Assembly (NCBI RefSeq): GCF_947496855.1
Contig: NZ_CANMED010000003.1
Coordinates: forward strand, 434,001 to 498,000
Length of the DNA: 64,000 bases
Source of the DNA: an uncultured Aquimarina sp.
GTDB taxonomy: Bacteria > Bacteroidota > Bacteroidia > Flavobacteriales > Flavobacteriaceae
Direction: 5' to 3'
Made by a program: the position numbers and the translations under genes. Shown piece after piece: positions 25,229-31,165 of this stretch. Below the pieces are notes generated by a model that saw only the letters and a program-made list of their open reading frames with translations, ran no database searches and was not told the DNA's origin. Every line of letters starts with the position of its first letter. Position 1 is the stretch's first letter.

Positions 25229-26329
25229 CTATTTCTGAATATTTTGTTTCTTTTCTGCTAATGTATTTTGTTCCATGATTTGTAACTCATTAGTAATTCT
25301 GCTCAGTAATACGTCAAAATCATTCTGGTTGATGAGATTACTTTCACGACCTGGAAAAATTTCTTCTGTAGGAATCCTATAATTAGGATCAATGGTAAAT
25401 TGATAAAAACTGGTAAGTAACTCTCCTTTAGCATTTACAAGAGGAACATCTAAAATAATTGAATCAACAGTATTATTTACCATATTAGGAATTATCCAAG
25501 GACGACTAGAGGTAAGAACATCTGGATCACGCCTTAGCGTAATATTCTTACTAGGTATTCGTTTTTTATTGGTATACCACTTACTATTAATTGCATCGTA
25601 GGCATCATACGTTTCTTTTGCTGTCTTTACAACATCTAAACTATCTAATGTGGATTCGATAATCATTGTTGCCGCCTGATTAAAAGGGAGCTCCGAATGC
25701 AAAGTTTTCATACCTATGTGTATCCCAAGTAAATTTGAATACACATCCTCAACCGAAAAACTAGAAAATTTTTCTGGTATAAAAGGAATAGTTGACGCAC
25801 CATACCAAGTAGAAATTTCGTGCCATAAAGAAAGATCATATGTTATCTTTCCTGCTAATAGAATACAATCGCTATTACTAAGCTGTTCTGGTACATTTAG
25901 ATATAAAGTTTTACGTCCTGCTTCTTTACGTAATGGCAAAACTACTTCTCCTTTCCCTCTGCTATTTAGAATGGTAGTGTATAGAAAGCGAGTCCAATCA
26001 ATTTGATCTCGTAAGTGACCAAAATCAATAAAACCGCCTTTATTTGTGTAAATCGTTCCAATACCTTCACTCTTATTTCCCATATAATGATGTTCATTCA
26101 GATCATCAATACTAATCACTTGATCAATGGAAACAAATGGCACTCCCCATATTTTTAAATCGTAGCCAAAAGCACAACAGGCTCTAATAATACGTGGAGG
26201 CGTTTTACTTAGATCAATAGGATCATCTTTTATACTTTGAGCACTTATGTTTAAAGGGGTAACAACAAGGCATAAAACTATAAAAAGTTTCACATAATGT
26301 AATGTTGTTCTGTAAATGACGAATTTCAT
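25229..26329 (-). CDS. DUF4056 domain protein, exported
   Basis: 366 residues. Signal peptide 1-31 (ending ISAQ). The DUF4056 pattern is plain: RIIRACCAFG near 48-57, EGIGTIYTNKGGFIDFGHLRDQIDW near 88-112 and LWHEISTWYGASTIPFIPEKFSSFSVEDVYSN in the middle, with conserved His, Glu and Asp that could form a metal or catalytic site. Family function unknown. It is the last gene of the carotenoid-glycosylation operon, 17 bp after the TPR gene. Confidence 0.8.
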   Translation of the reverse strand: MKFVIYRTTLHYVKLFIVLCLVVTPLNISAQSIKDDPIDLSKTPPRIIRACCAFGYDLKIWGVPFVSIDQVISIDDLNEHHYMGNKSEGIGTIYTNKGGFIDFGHLRDQIDWTRFLYTTILNSRGKGEVVLPLRKEAGRKTLYLNVPEQLSNSDCILLAGKITYDLSLWHEISTWYGASTIPFIPEKFSSFSVEDVYSNLLGIHIGMKTLHSELPFNQAATMIIESTLDSLDVVKTAKETYDAYDAINSKWYTNKKRIPSKNITLRRDPDVLTSSRPWIIPNMVNNTVDSIILDVPLVNAKGELLTSFYQFTIDPNYRIPTEEIFPGRESNLINQNDFDVLLSRITNELQIMEQNTLAEKKQNIQK

Positions 26330-26346
26330 GGAGCTAGATGATAATA

Positions 26347-27102
26347 TTATAGATTGTTACGTTTTATCATATCAGGGTAAAGTTCATCTTCAACCCACAT
26401 GAAATTAGGAAATATCCGCATTATTTTTTCATAACATAATTTGGCTAGTTGTATTTGATCAGTAGCTTCGTATGCCTGTCCTAAAGCAGTCATTGTATTT
26501 ATGTACATCCAGTTATTAACAATCAGTCCTTGTTTTTCAAAGCTTTTAACTGCTTTTACATAGTATTCAATTGCTTCATTCTTATCTCCGCCAAATGCTG
26601 ATGGACGATAATACATGGAGTTACCTTTTTCAATATTCCCTTGAATATTCTCTGGATCTAGTTCGATAGATTTATCTATGTATCTCATGCTCCTCCTGCC
26701 TAAGTAAATAGCTTTAAAATTTGAGATACCAATAGTAAACGCAATGTAAGCTCCTTTATATGCCAGCAAGGTTGCGTTTTCGGGGGATTTATCTAATAAC
26801 TTATCAATAATTTTTTCTGATTTTTCTATATAATCTTCAGCAGTATCATGCTTTTCTGCACCAATTAACCAAGCTGTATAACCGTAGTAATAACTAATAA
26901 GCTCTAATTGTTCATCATAACTATTCGGGTTTGCATTTTTTTCACAAGAATGCATTAATCCATACCACTTATCCATTTTACCTCGCGAATAAGCTTTATA
27001 AATCGGGTCGCGGTATGGGCTTTGAGAAAAGCCCAATTGTATTGAAAGTAACAAAACGCTGATTGCAATTACAAATCTTGTAATATATTTCGGTCTTTCC
27101 AT
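26347..27102 (-). CDS. Tetratricopeptide-repeat exported protein
   Basis: 251 residues. Signal sequence to about residue 26 (LGFSQ). The mature protein is helical with TPR-like units such as NATLLAYKGAYIAFTIG, RSMRYIDKSIELDPENIQGNIEKGNSM and MTALGQAYEATDQIQLAKLCYEKI. Its start overlaps the glycosyltransferase end by 34 bp, a long overlap but the only Met ahead of the signal peptide. Role probably a scaffold with the DUF4056 protein. Confidence 0.82.
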   Translation of the reverse strand: MERPKYITRFVIAISVLLLSIQLGFSQSPYRDPIYKAYSRGKMDKWYGLMHSCEKNANPNSYDEQLELISYYYGYTAWLIGAEKHDTAEDYIEKSEKIIDKLLDKSPENATLLAYKGAYIAFTIGISNFKAIYLGRRSMRYIDKSIELDPENIQGNIEKGNSMYYRPSAFGGDKNEAIEYYVKAVKSFEKQGLIVNNWMYINTMTALGQAYEATDQIQLAKLCYEKIMRIFPNFMWVEDELYPDMIKRNNL

Positions 27103-28172
27103 ATTAGTTTTTTCTGTTTGTTATTTATGATTCCTTTAATTATTATTAAAAGAAATATAATGTGCTGTGGTAGTACTAAAAGTAGGTTTTGGACTATTGA
27201 TTGTTGGCTCGCCAACATTACAAAAAATCGAATGCAGATAATCCCTGCAAGATATGCTGTTAACCACCAAAAGCCCATGTATGCGTATACTACAAATGGA
27301 GCTATGGTTGTTAAAATTCCAAAAGAAATAGTTACTAAAATACTATCCCCAAAAAACTGAAATATATTTTTTATGAATCCCTCAATAGCATCATCTAGTC
27401 CAACATACATTCGGCAAGAAATATCACTATCTCCTAAGCGCGTATCACTGGCGAGGCCTTTTTGTTTAAATAGTCTTATGATAGCCATGTCTTCTACCTT
27501 ATTAGACTTACATTTTTCGTGAGGCCATATTTTTTTATACGTAGCTGCTTTGAACATCATGAATTGCCCATTGGCTGCCGAAAAGATTTTGTTCTTTGAC
27601 TTTCGAATTAGGTAAATCGGAAGTATGCTCAACAAAATCCAGTTCATTAAGGGTACAGAAACTTTTTCTCCGAAAGACTTAACTATTTGCTTTGGAAATA
27701 TCGATAACAAATGAAGTTCGTGTTTTTGAAGATAACTAATACTACGCTCGATTACATCTTTTTTTACGCTTACATCTGCATCTAAAAAAAGTAATAAATC
27801 ACCAGTAGCTTTTTGTGCTAATTGGTGGCAGGCATGATTCTTACCCAACCAACCTTGCGGAAGTGCATCTCCATTTAATAGTTTAATATTAGGTTTAAGT
27901 GATACCCAATGCTTGATAATACTTTCTGTTTCATCAGTAGAGTGATCATTATAGACAATGATTTCAAGCTTATGGTATTCAAACGTTGATAATTGCTCTA
28001 ATAAGGTTCCAATATTTTCTTCCTCATTACGTGCGGGTATTAAAATTGAAACACGTGGCACTGATGTTAACGAAGTTATCTTTGGTAAATAAGCGAACGA
28101 AAGATAATTAACAAATGCTACAAGCAATCTGATAATCAGAAGGGTTATTAGGAAATAACAGAAATATATCAT
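27069..28172 (-). CDS. Glycosyltransferase family 2, carotenoid-operon type
   Basis: 367 residues from the ATG at 28170-28172, which forms an ATGA overlap with the acyltransferase stop; a longer frame from 28196 is less likely. GT-A fold: VSILIPARNEEENIGTLLEQL (41-61), VYNDHSTDET, and the metal-binding DAD at 131-133. An N-terminal helix (4-25) and two to three C-terminal helices (about 270-345) anchor it. It resembles CrtQ-like GT2 enzymes that glycosylate carotenoids. Neighbours CrtB, CruF and an acyltransferase support a glycosyl-carotenoid acyl ester product (inference). Confidence 0.88.
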   Translation of the reverse strand: MIYFCYFLITLLIIRLLVAFVNYLSFAYLPKITSLTSVPRVSILIPARNEEENIGTLLEQLSTFEYHKLEIIVYNDHSTDETESIIKHWVSLKPNIKLLNGDALPQGWLGKNHACHQLAQKATGDLLLFLDADVSVKKDVIERSISYLQKHELHLLSIFPKQIVKSFGEKVSVPLMNWILLSILPIYLIRKSKNKIFSAANGQFMMFKAATYKKIWPHEKCKSNKVEDMAIIRLFKQKGLASDTRLGDSDISCRMYVGLDDAIEGFIKNIFQFFGDSILVTISFGILTTIAPFVVYAYMGFWWLTAYLAGIICIRFFVMLASQQSIVQNLLLVLPQHIIFLLIIIKGIINNKQKKLIWKDRNILQDL

Positions 28173-28789
28173 CTTAAGCCTTGTTTTGTAAAACACGATT
28201 TTGCAAAACGATTAAATTCTCGTTCTACATCTTCAGCATTTGTATTTGTACTTATTGTATGTGTTTCGTAGTATACACACATATCGGGCCTAAGTTTAAT
28301 TCCATAATTAATAAGGTTAACATTATAAACTAACTGGAAATCATTTTTTGTGTTTTCTAAAACATAAGAAAGTAAGCCCTTTTCGAAAGTAAACTCTCTT
28401 GTATATATGCTTTTAATCTTCCCCTGTGGAAAAAACAGAAATAAGTTCTCTTTATTTTGTAACATTTCAACCGCATAATTAAGGCTCGCTATACTTGATC
28501 GCTTGCCTTTGTTAATTGAACTAGCACCAATTTTGGTTAATAGCATGTTTTTACGCAACTCCTTTTCCAACATCATAAAATTAAATCTTCGTTTAAAGAC
28601 TTTGAAGTTTAATAAAATTTGAATAAAACCATCGTAAAACGAAAAATGATTGCTAATCATAAGAATAGGTAGTCCTTTTTCTTCATACTCGCCAGCATAC
28701 TTAGTACTACTAAAAAAAAAGCCTAATAGTATTTTTGTAAAATACTTGGAAAATCTTACCCACAATTTACTATGATTGGCTCGTATCAT
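28169..28789 (-). CDS. PlsC-type acyltransferase
   Basis: 206 residues. HX4D motif NHFSFYD (His48, Asp53) and the substrate motif FPQGK in place of FPEGT near residue 120. The Glu to Gln change in the second motif also occurs in some CrtO-like or glycosyl-acyl transferases. The gene has 4-bp overlaps with cruF upstream and the glycosyltransferase downstream. Likely acylates the carotenoid sugar, as in glycosyl carotenoid esters; phospholipid synthesis is the alternative. Confidence 0.85.
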   Translation of the reverse strand: MIRANHSKLWVRFSKYFTKILLGFFFSSTKYAGEYEEKGLPILMISNHFSFYDGFIQILLNFKVFKRRFNFMMLEKELRKNMLLTKIGASSINKGKRSSIASLNYAVEMLQNKENLFLFFPQGKIKSIYTREFTFEKGLLSYVLENTKNDFQLVYNVNLINYGIKLRPDMCVYYETHTISTNTNAEDVEREFNRFAKSCFTKQGLR

Positions 28790-29445
28790 TTTTTACTATA
28801 AATATTGAAAATAACTAAAATTGTAAAAAAAACAAACTGAACAAAAAATAACCAACGCGCAGATTCATTGTTCGTATTCACTCTAAATCTCTGAATAACC
28901 CAATTAAAGATTAAAGCCAATAAGAACCAAACTACATAGTTGTTTATAGGAGGATCGTTCTTTGAAAACATCCACATATCCATCAAAGGAGCGGCTTTTT
29001 CAAGTAAGATATCATATATTACCATCAGTGATGCTGAACCTACAATAATAGGGATATTTTTGGATGTATATCTAGAGATAATCCCATTAGAAGCATACGT
29101 TAAGAAAACCCAATTAAGACCAATAATAACTGGCACATCAGCTATTTTAACCCCAAGTCCTTTACCGTATTCATACACTCCAAATAATTTACCGGTTGCT
29201 ACACCAATAATTTCGATTACAATACTTATTGTAAAAATACTAGCTAAAACGGCAATCGTTTTTACATTCCACTTTTTATGATGTGAAAAAACAGCTGCGG
29301 AAACTAAAACCAGCGTATAAGGTGTAATTAGTATAAATAAATTGTGAGTGAAAGGTGTGAAATACAAAGCCAATCCCACACAGTAAAAAACTATAAAAGT
29401 TATTGGAAGCCCCTCATTAACAATATACTTAACTATCCGATTCAT
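28786..29445 (-). CDS. cruF: Carotenoid biosynthesis protein, CruF family (1',2'-hydratase)
   Basis: 219 residues, six to seven membrane helices. CruF/DUF422 features: VIEIIGVATGKLFGVYEYGKGLGVKIADVPVIIGLNWVFL and the YDILLEKAAPLMDMWMF segment with conserved Asp/Glu and Trp residues. Family activity: adds water to the psi end of carotenoids to give 1'-hydroxy groups. ATGA overlap with the desaturase remnant upstream and with the acyltransferase downstream. Confidence 0.9.
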   Translation of the reverse strand: MNRIVKYIVNEGLPITFIVFYCVGLALYFTPFTHNLFILITPYTLVLVSAAVFSHHKKWNVKTIAVLASIFTISIVIEIIGVATGKLFGVYEYGKGLGVKIADVPVIIGLNWVFLTYASNGIISRYTSKNIPIIVGSASLMVIYDILLEKAAPLMDMWMFSKNDPPINNYVVWFLLALIFNWVIQRFRVNTNNESARWLFFVQFVFFTILVIFNIYSKK

Positions 29446-29612
29446 CTACTATACAGGTATTTCATTGGTGCAATTTTAGCATTAGCTAAACAGAACGGTA
29501 TTCTACCCTTAGATGCATTTCTTTCAAATACAATTATTTCATCTCCTTTGACTATCAATCTGCAATAAGCAGTCCATACAACGATTCCGAAATCAATTAC
29601 TACAATCTTCAT
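29442..29612 (-). pseudogene. In-frame remnant (56 codons) of a CrtI/CrtD-type carotenoid desaturase
   Basis: My translation from the ATG at 29610-29612 begins MKIVVIDFGIVVWTAYCRLI and continues VKGDEIIVFERNASKG. This is the CrtI-family N-terminus in which the FAD loop GxGxGG has become D-F-G-I-V-V. It then joins RIPFCLANAKIAP, the C-terminal GGGIPLCLxSAKI motif of the same family. So more than 400 codons between the two motifs have been deleted in frame. Both ends keep ATGA overlaps with the lycopene cyclase and cruF, so translation still passes through. No desaturase activity is possible. Position suggests a CrtD-like enzyme; a CrtI origin is the alternative. Confidence 0.85.
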
Positions 29613-30316
29613 GCCTTTTTAGTTTTTCTAGATCTCATTTCAAAAATATGAGTTAACGCCAAAGGTGATAACAGCAGTGAAAAATTATAAAACATGTCTT
29701 CAAGCGGAATTGAGAAAATATGAATTCCCAATATTACTTGAGGATTGTAATCAAAAACAGCTTGCTCAATCCCAGTACCTGTTAAGATTCCATTTATAAT
29801 AAAAAACGGGATGAGTAAAATCGGATATATTGCTAAATAGTACTGTACTACTTCTCTACTAAAATAATAACTTAGTAAAAGTATAGCAGGCAAAACAAGG
29901 AAATTAACAAAAGTATAAGTAAGGTCTTGATGTAATAATGAAGTTATAACAGATACTATTACAATGAAAAAAGTTAAAATTTTTGTCCATTTTTCATTCA
30001 ACTTGAATTTTGGAAAATGAAATTTAACTGCGTAAAATGAGAATGCACAAGCGTATGGAATGGCAATAAAAAACAAGTATTCTTCCAAAGGAAGCTTACT
30101 TATGTAAATGCCTGAATTATATCTTGAATTGAAAAACCAACATCCCATATGCGTAAAGATGATATCCCAAGCCACAAAAACAAACATAGTTATTAAGATT
30201 GCAGGAAGCAGGTATTTCCAACGCTTGTAGAGTCTAAGGTTTTTCTCGAAACTCAAAGCAAGTGGTCCAGCAAGTGAAATAACAAGTATAATTAAATAGA
30301 GTGACATAGTTAGCAA
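29609..30316 (-). CDS. Lycopene cyclase domain protein (fused CrtYcd type)
   Basis: 235 residues, about seven helices. It has the two CarR-type half motifs PLEEYLFF (76-83) and PLEDMFYN (204-211), so both heterodimer halves are fused in one chain. The family forms beta-ionone rings from lycopene. Located 12 bp after crtB, it overlaps the desaturase remnant by 4 bp. An ATG at codon 4 is an alternative start. Confidence 0.9.
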   Translation of the reverse strand: MLTMSLYLIILVISLAGPLALSFEKNLRLYKRWKYLLPAILITMFVFVAWDIIFTHMGCWFFNSRYNSGIYISKLPLEEYLFFIAIPYACAFSFYAVKFHFPKFKLNEKWTKILTFFIVIVSVITSLLHQDLTYTFVNFLVLPAILLLSYYFSREVVQYYLAIYPILLIPFFIINGILTGTGIEQAVFDYNPQVILGIHIFSIPLEDMFYNFSLLLSPLALTHIFEMRSRKTKKA

Positions 30317-30328
30317 TTTTATTCTGTT

Positions 30329-31165
30329 CTATGCCAGCTTAAGTTTCTTGGCGATGTAAATAGATCCTAATGACCACATCTTAACTCTATTAGGAATTCG
30401 AATTCGCTCATTTAGTAATTTCTCTACAGGAGTATTCTCTATCTTAGTGGTAAGTTTAGTGTAATAAAGATATGCTGCATACACTCCTTTTCTTGAATTA
30501 TCAGGCAATTCTTTGATTCCCTCTAAAGCAACTCTGAAATCTTCATTAATATCATCAATAATCTTTTTCTTGATATCTTCGGTGAGTTCGTTATCCCTTA
30601 AAATTGGAAAGTAGATGCGATGTAACTCATTGATGTCATCGTTAATATCGCGTAAGAAATTTACTTTCTGAAAAGCAGAACCTAAACGCATCGCAGCTGG
30701 TTTTAAAGCCTGATAACGTTCTTCATCACCATTAACAAAAACCTTAAGACACATTAACCCAACCACATCAGCCGATCCATATATGTACGCTTTAATCTCA
30801 TTATCATCGAACTCTTTCTTTGATAAATCACTATGCATACTCTTTAAGAAAGCTTGTATCAACTCATCGTCAATATTATATTTGCGAACAGTTATTTGAA
30901 ACGAATTAAGTATAGGGTTGAGACTTATACCTTGATCATAGGCTTGGTAATAATCTTCTTCAAAGTTCGAAAACAACGAGGCTTTATCATACTCATGAAA
31001 TGTATCAACAATCTCATCAGCAAAGCGCACAAAACCATAAATACTATAGATACTATCTCTTATTGATTTATCAAACAGTTTAATACCCATTGAAAATGAA
31101 GTACTATAATTTTGTGTAACAATTTTACTACACTTAAATGACACATCATCAAATAATTCCTTCAT
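30329..31165 (-). CDS. crtB: Phytoene synthase (CrtB)
   Basis: 278 residues. First aspartate-rich motif DEIVD (50-54) after YGFVRFA, and the second, NFLRDINDD, near 170-180: the metal-diphosphate sites of squalene/phytoene synthases. Condenses two geranylgeranyl diphosphates to phytoene. First gene of the minus-strand carotenoid operon. Squalene synthase is ruled less likely by the carotenoid context. Confidence 0.92.
   Translation of the reverse strand: MKELFDDVSFKCSKIVTQNYSTSFSMGIKLFDKSIRDSIYSIYGFVRFADEIVDTFHEYDKASLFSNFEEDYYQAYDQGISLNPILNSFQITVRKYNIDDELIQAFLKSMHSDLSKKEFDDNEIKAYIYGSADVVGLMCLKVFVNGDEERYQALKPAAMRLGSAFQKVNFLRDINDDINELHRIYFPILRDNELTEDIKKKIIDDINEDFRVALEGIKELPDNSRKGVYAAYLYYTKLTTKIENTPVEKLLNERIRIPNRVKMWSLGSIYIAKKLKLA

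Follow-up and report, generated by a model that had tools for sequence, protein, structure and literature searches.

The carotenoid operon of an uncultured Aquimarina sp. raises the question of why an open reading frame (ORF) of only 56 codons should stand between the genes for two enzymes, and why it has remained open. The operon lies on the minus strand of the window (the whole stretch of DNA that was analysed, 64,000 nt at bases 434001-498000 of contig 3 in a 5.8-Mb genome) in the order crtB, crtYcd, 56-codon ORF, cruF, acyltransferase, glycosyltransferase, TPR protein and DUF4056 protein. The first-pass annotation took the small ORF for a carotenoid desaturase collapsed by an internal deletion of more than 400 codons that spared the reading frame, and proposed that selection now acts only to pass ribosomes on to cruF. 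The genes around the ORF are the following:

30329..31165, minus strand: crtB, phytoene synthase, first operon gene in the window (PF00494)
29609..30307, minus strand: crtYcd, a fused lycopene cyclase (PF18916, TIGR03462), for which the ORF caller chose a TTG start at 30316
28786..29445, minus strand: cruF-type carotenoid hydratase (PF04240; TIGR03460 at 59.9 bits, under the cut-off of 154.7)
28169..28789, minus strand: acyltransferase (PF01553), with an ATGA overlap with cruF at 28786-28789
27069..28196, minus strand: glycosyltransferase family 2, CruG-like (scoring under the cut-off of that model), for which the ORF caller chose a GTG start at 28196
26347..27102, minus strand: TPR protein, overlapping the glycosyltransferase gene by 34 nt
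25229..26329, minus strand: DUF4056 protein (PF13265), 17 nt after the TPR gene

Four-nucleotide ATGA overlaps join crtYcd to the ORF, the ORF to cruF, and cruF to the acyltransferase gene. A likelier start for the glycosyltransferase gene is the ATG at 28172, which would form an ATGA with the acyltransferase stop (28169-28172); in genome G017 the ORF caller places the glycosyltransferase start at the ATG within that ATGA. The mean dN/dS of cruF is 0.138 (45 pairs), and the gene downstream of the ORF is therefore under selection. No crtI was found beside the window crtB, whereas Aurantibacter has one there. Judging from the roles of the protein families, the product is presumably a monocyclic carotenoid that is hydrated by CruF, glycosylated and acylated. 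The TPR and DUF4056 genes (25229-27102 of the window, minus strand) follow the glycosyltransferase gene in this order in all 11 Aquimarina loci, as judged by ORF starts.

Aligned with CrtD, the small ORF resolves into the following parts:

29442..29612, minus strand: the whole ORF, a collapsed crtD of 56 codons (alignment to CrtD)
29609..29612, minus strand: ATGA overlap of the crtYcd stop and the ORF start
29505-29612, minus strand: part matching CrtD residues 1-36 (BLASTP)
29472-29507, minus strand: part matching CrtD residues 467-478 (BLASTP)
29445-29471, minus strand: tail, frame-shifted by a 1-nt deletion (alignment)
29442-29444, minus strand: stop codon of the ORF
29442..29445, minus strand: ATGA overlap of the ORF stop and the cruF start

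By this alignment the ORF is both ends of a CrtD-type carotenoid desaturase and could make no enzyme. In BLASTP against the in-operon CrtD of Kriegella, its residues 1-36 match CrtD residues 1-36 with 50% identity (E=1e-8) and its residues 36-47 match CrtD residues 467-478 with 75% identity (E=4e-4), both E-values being those of one single comparison. The order of the two ends is kept, with one glycine common to both at the join. None of 5000 shuffles equalled either score; together with the BLASTP matches, this rules out a chance resemblance to CrtD. Searched alone, the ORF gave no Pfam family at E<=1, hence no amino-oxidase match, and just two NCBIfam models, neither of them significant (E 0.12 and 0.14). 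Its ends and its operon position derive from carotenoid 3,4-desaturase CrtD (CrtI/CrtD family, PF01593), from which it differs in having lost about 430 of 486 codons and the GxGxxG FAD-binding loop, reading IDFGIVVW where CrtD has IGSGIGGL. The collapse, the size of the deletion and the mutated loop glycines reported by the first-pass annotation are all borne out. The ATGA overlaps that it described at both ends are also present (-4 nt on each side), but the downstream one is probably secondary: the 1-nt deletion near the 3' end of the stub moved it into the frame that exits at ATGA. The downstream ATGA was set aside as an ancestral feature, since only four of the ten stubs in the genus finish at ATGA, the stop of the other six preceding the cruF ATG by 0 or 3 nt.

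The intact form of the gene is found in relatives. A full-length crtD occupies the position between crtYcd and cruF in nine loci (486 codons in eight, 487 in one), which belong to Kriegella (G217), Aurantibacter (G443), G482, Zobellia barbeyronii, Maribacter algarum, a Saccharicrinis MAG and three uncultured Flavobacteriaceae; a Salinivirgaceae MAG (L119), outside the nine-locus count, has a nearly full-length crtD at the same spot. Alignment with CrtD of relatives at the same operon position, a check that the first-pass annotation had proposed, thus places the stub on an intact gene. The whole series crtI-crtB-crtYcd-crtD-cruF-acyltransferase-glycosyltransferase is found in Aurantibacter and in the MAGs labelled Saccharicrinis and Salinivirgaceae. 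The complete operon in these two MAGs (L110 and L119), whose labels we take to belong to Bacteroidales or Marinilabiliales, reflects either transfer between orders or misbinning.

Within the genus, the close form of crtYcd (at least 85% identity) is present in 11 of 66 genomes, and five more have a distant form only (39-42%). Ten of the 11 genomes with the operon carry a stub, 29-61 codons long, and all ten stubs are free of stops over the whole interval between crtYcd and the start of cruF, so the annotation's remark that no stop had appeared extends to the genus. The eleventh genome (G013) has no stub: cruF begins directly in the ATGA of the crtYcd stop and apparently sits on the old crtD start codon, its first codons being crtD-like by eye. 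Thirteen crtD-less operons were scored, 12 of them with a linker, and in all 12 the linker ORF spans from the crtYcd stop to between -3 and +4 nt of the cruF start (contigs L101-L109 and L112 come from genomes already taken and were left out of the counts; L120 and L121 end inside crtYcd and fall outside the crtD scoring). Two of these operons are not from Aquimarina: that of the uncultured Flavobacteriaceae 2-815 (L111, 46 codons), and that of a Maribacter MAG (L114, 22 codons), in which the crtD start codon is lost and a different ATG is used. Mononucleotide shuffles leave the linker open with P of 0.066 for L111 and 0.21 for L114. Both fall outside Aquimarina in a tree built from the crtYcd, acyltransferase and glycosyltransferase proteins, several nodes of which are weak (38-80%); with this placement there were probably three or more losses of crtD, each of them bridged or directly joined.

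The deletion in Aquimarina is likely to have arisen through glycine-coding repeats. Both of its ends encode PGG, in the same reading phase, in all nine full-length crtD genes. In the register that fits the junction, the two ends match exactly over 8 nt of DNA in two of the nine (the Saccharicrinis MAG and L118), over 7 nt in Aurantibacter and over 2-6 nt in the other six; in a neighbouring register, which would leave one codon more, 8 nt match in three of the nine. Because both ends code PGG in the same phase, an in-frame product can result without selection. The claim that the deletion spared the frame therefore stands, and selection for an in-frame deletion was dropped as unneeded.

The loss of crtD may be tolerable because the stub genomes have a second crtD elsewhere. 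All ten carry one, which shares 75-100% identity with its counterpart in the window genome (G000), where the gene lies in a crtD-cruF-crtY cluster (G000:C5:303554-305666); another desaturase in the genome, for which the first-pass annotation had suggested looking, is thus present. No second CrtD was found in G013, a genome 78% complete. In G217, G443 and G482 the in-operon CrtD is the only one (47-48%), other matches being 25-31% identical, in the CrtI range. A further carotenoid cluster of the window genome (G000:C8:272504-273964) contains a MerR-like regulator (by eye), crtI, crtB and crtZ.

At the protein level the stub drifts freely. Its dN/dS has a mean of 1.09 and a range of 0.52-1.74 (15 pairs of six alignable genomes, first 48 alignment columns), and differences fall by codon position as 195:198:180 in the same six genomes; for crtB, crtYcd, acyltransferase and glycosyltransferase, dN/dS is 0.052-0.091 and the differences are 1037:563:3724. 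The first-pass annotation had named the same short ORF with conserved sequence in close relatives as what would refute it; the ORF is common to relatives, but at a dN/dS of about 1. The frame, by comparison, is intact, with no stop in 478 stub codons (the last two codons of each excluded), and the other two forward frames contain 53 and 67 stops in 492 codons each.

We consider it reasonably probable, on this comparative evidence, that the dead crtD is kept translatable as a spacer so that ribosomes can pass along a chain of ATGA-linked genes. In an ancestor within the genus, an in-frame deletion of about 430 codons, probably bounded by a pair of glycine-coding repeats, would have left an ORF of about 54-55 codons; this would then have drifted without amino-acid constraint, with stop-creating changes purged by selection. 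A chain of ATGA overlaps ties crtYcd, the stub, cruF, acyltransferase and glycosyltransferase together, in a phylum where ribosomes make little use of Shine-Dalgarno sites. Ribosomes would finish crtYcd, restart on the stub, finish at the cruF start and restart there; were the stub to contain a stop, they would halt as much as about 160 nt before that point, and cruF would be cut off along with the later genes of the chain. That the stub is translated, that ribosomes terminate and reinitiate there, and that selection acts on the stub are what we infer. In favour of this reading, the A of the stub's ATG, which falls on the third position of a crtYcd codon, is conserved in all 11 genomes while the residue varies between A, V, G and I; in G013 it serves as the cruF start. 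Of 63 four-fold crtYcd columns, three have A in all 11 genomes. As excerpted, one study reports ATGA pairs to be strictly coupled in Haloferax, in nine of nine tested, and E. coli pairs to be non-uniform (PMC6728339); excerpts of two others state that Bacteroidia ribosomes fail to recognize SD sequences (PMC9976891) and that Bacteroidetes mRNAs are naturally without Shine-Dalgarno sequences (PMC6847099). Of the earlier proposal that selection acts only to pass ribosomes to cruF, the lack of protein constraint and the open frame hold, and cruF would be a presumed beneficiary. In G078, cruF itself has collapsed from about 219 to 67 codons (L063:2248-2451, plus strand), and this remnant is open and ends 3 nt before the acyltransferase start; the beneficiaries of the open stub therefore probably include later operon genes as well as cruF.

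The stub might instead be kept open so that the RNA stays covered by ribosomes and Rho-dependent termination (polarity) before cruF is avoided, restart playing no part; we regard this as unlikely. Rho polarity on untranslated RNA is established in bacteria, according to the excerpted text of PMC12548453, and it would leave nearly the same trace as restart at cruF, predicting the same open frame, a dN/dS of about 1 and tolerated changes in length. Rho polarity needs no stub ATG in the crtYcd stop, yet all ten genus stubs have it. Neither does it need a stop at the cruF ATG, yet one is found in 12 of 12 operons; the position of this stop is weak evidence and partly automatic, because the old crtD stop and the cruF ATGA between them close two of the three frames at that point in any case. 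The stubs are also AT-rich and C-poor (C 13%), and such RNA is a poor substrate for Rho loading.

Less likely still is that the stub is a plain pseudogene remnant which happens to have no stop yet. Mononucleotide shuffles give P of 0.0065-0.094 for a single open stub across the ten, but shuffles ignore that the remnant starts open, and tree-based simulation was therefore relied on. The neutral simulations ran along the tree with substitutions only, indels being ignored and 20 codons each being counted for G032 and G078; rooting was at the midpoint for transition biases of 2 and 4 and on the clade of G025, G064 and G032 for no bias or the fitted bias. At the unscaled rate, 5.1-7.7 of the ten genomes are expected to have a stop, and P for no stop in ten lies, over eight settings, between 0 of 40,000 runs and 0.009 even before indels are counted: at most 0.00003 without transition bias, 0.0002-0.003 with biases of 2 and 4, and 0.007-0.009 when the bias is the fitted 5.5. 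Scaling the rate to three quarters brings P to 0.0003-0.027 (fitted bias 0.026-0.027), and halving it brings P to 0.004-0.088, the upper value coming from the fitted bias and being that of the most lenient setting. Chance is also helped by linker dS (0.16-0.71) being mostly below flanking dS (0.27-0.77) and by the relatedness of the ten stub genomes; what speaks against it, besides the unscaled simulations, is that the other forward frames are full of stops and that probably at least three crtD losses were all bridged or joined directly. Selection against stops in the stub is likely rather than firmly established; the ten genomes are related, and the other two crtD-less cases (L111 and L114) are short or weak.

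Broken crtB remnants at the 5' end of the operon, with no coupled gene upstream, also argue against chance. They are broken in all four loci where tblastn detected them (L115, L117, L118 and L120), with 2-9 stops per frame in 270 nt and a last open stretch before crtYcd of at most 57 nt. Stops occur in every frame in all seven 5'-end loci examined; L121 has what resembles a crtB remnant by eye only, and none was detected in L113 or L116. Openness is not unique to inner positions, because the 5' end of the Kriegella operon holds an open chimera of 171 codons (L098:5620-6135, minus strand), in which the crtI N-terminus is joined to the crtB C-terminus (where they match, 60% and 54% identical, respectively, to their Aurantibacter counterparts). 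A short shared stretch that begins MKKIITF precedes the first operon gene both in operons without crtI and crtB and in that of Aurantibacter (about 264-277 nt upstream of crtYcd in L117, L118, L120 and L121; at -92 in L113; L099:1501), and is perhaps a conserved promoter or leader.

That the stub is a functional small protein is highly improbable, for although the ORF is common to ten genomes and its first six codons are less variable than the rest, its dN/dS of about 1 and its length variation (29-61 codons) led us to reject this reading, little sequence being shared in G032, G025, G064 and G078 and the ORF being absent from G013.

Known systems resemble parts of this arrangement. Termination-reinitiation coupling at ATGA, as excerpted from PMC6728339, shares the ATGA overlaps, tandem genes and short stop-to-start distance; here, unlike there, the middle ORF is a dead gene with an apparently unconstrained product. 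Reinitiation leader genes (PMC4833913, in excerpt) are likewise short ORFs thought to matter for the ribosomes they deliver and not for their product, but the stub sits inside an operon, flanked by genes for two enzymes, and can be traced to a lost gene. The myxol cluster of Nonlabens spongiae, listed in the excerpt of PMC11855829 as CrtB, CrtI, CrtY, CruF, CrtD, CrtA-OH and CrtZ, is also flavobacterial and joins CruF and CrtD; unlike it, the window operon has acyltransferase and glycosyltransferase genes and is without crtD and crtI. No precedent for such a stub was recognised among the matches listed, which cover open-access literature only.

More generally, and tentatively, genes lost from tightly coupled operons, in bacteria that barely use SD sequences, may leave product-free 'ribosome bridges', selected only to lack stops. 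The process would have been repeated in the operons studied here, for crtD in probably three lineages and for cruF in one genome, and in another genome would have gone so far as to fuse cruF fully to the start codon of crtD. The case is unusual and well bounded, with full-length relatives, a known deletion, ten descendants, a neutral protein and an open frame. If the reading of the stub as a translated spacer is true, selection can keep an ORF for being translated, its product being irrelevant, and the role of coupling in a phylum without Shine-Dalgarno initiation becomes directly testable. It would also be a warning against taking every short ORF with a conserved position for a small protein; ribosome bridges, if true, would represent a general way for genes to decay and a kind of ORF without functional product.
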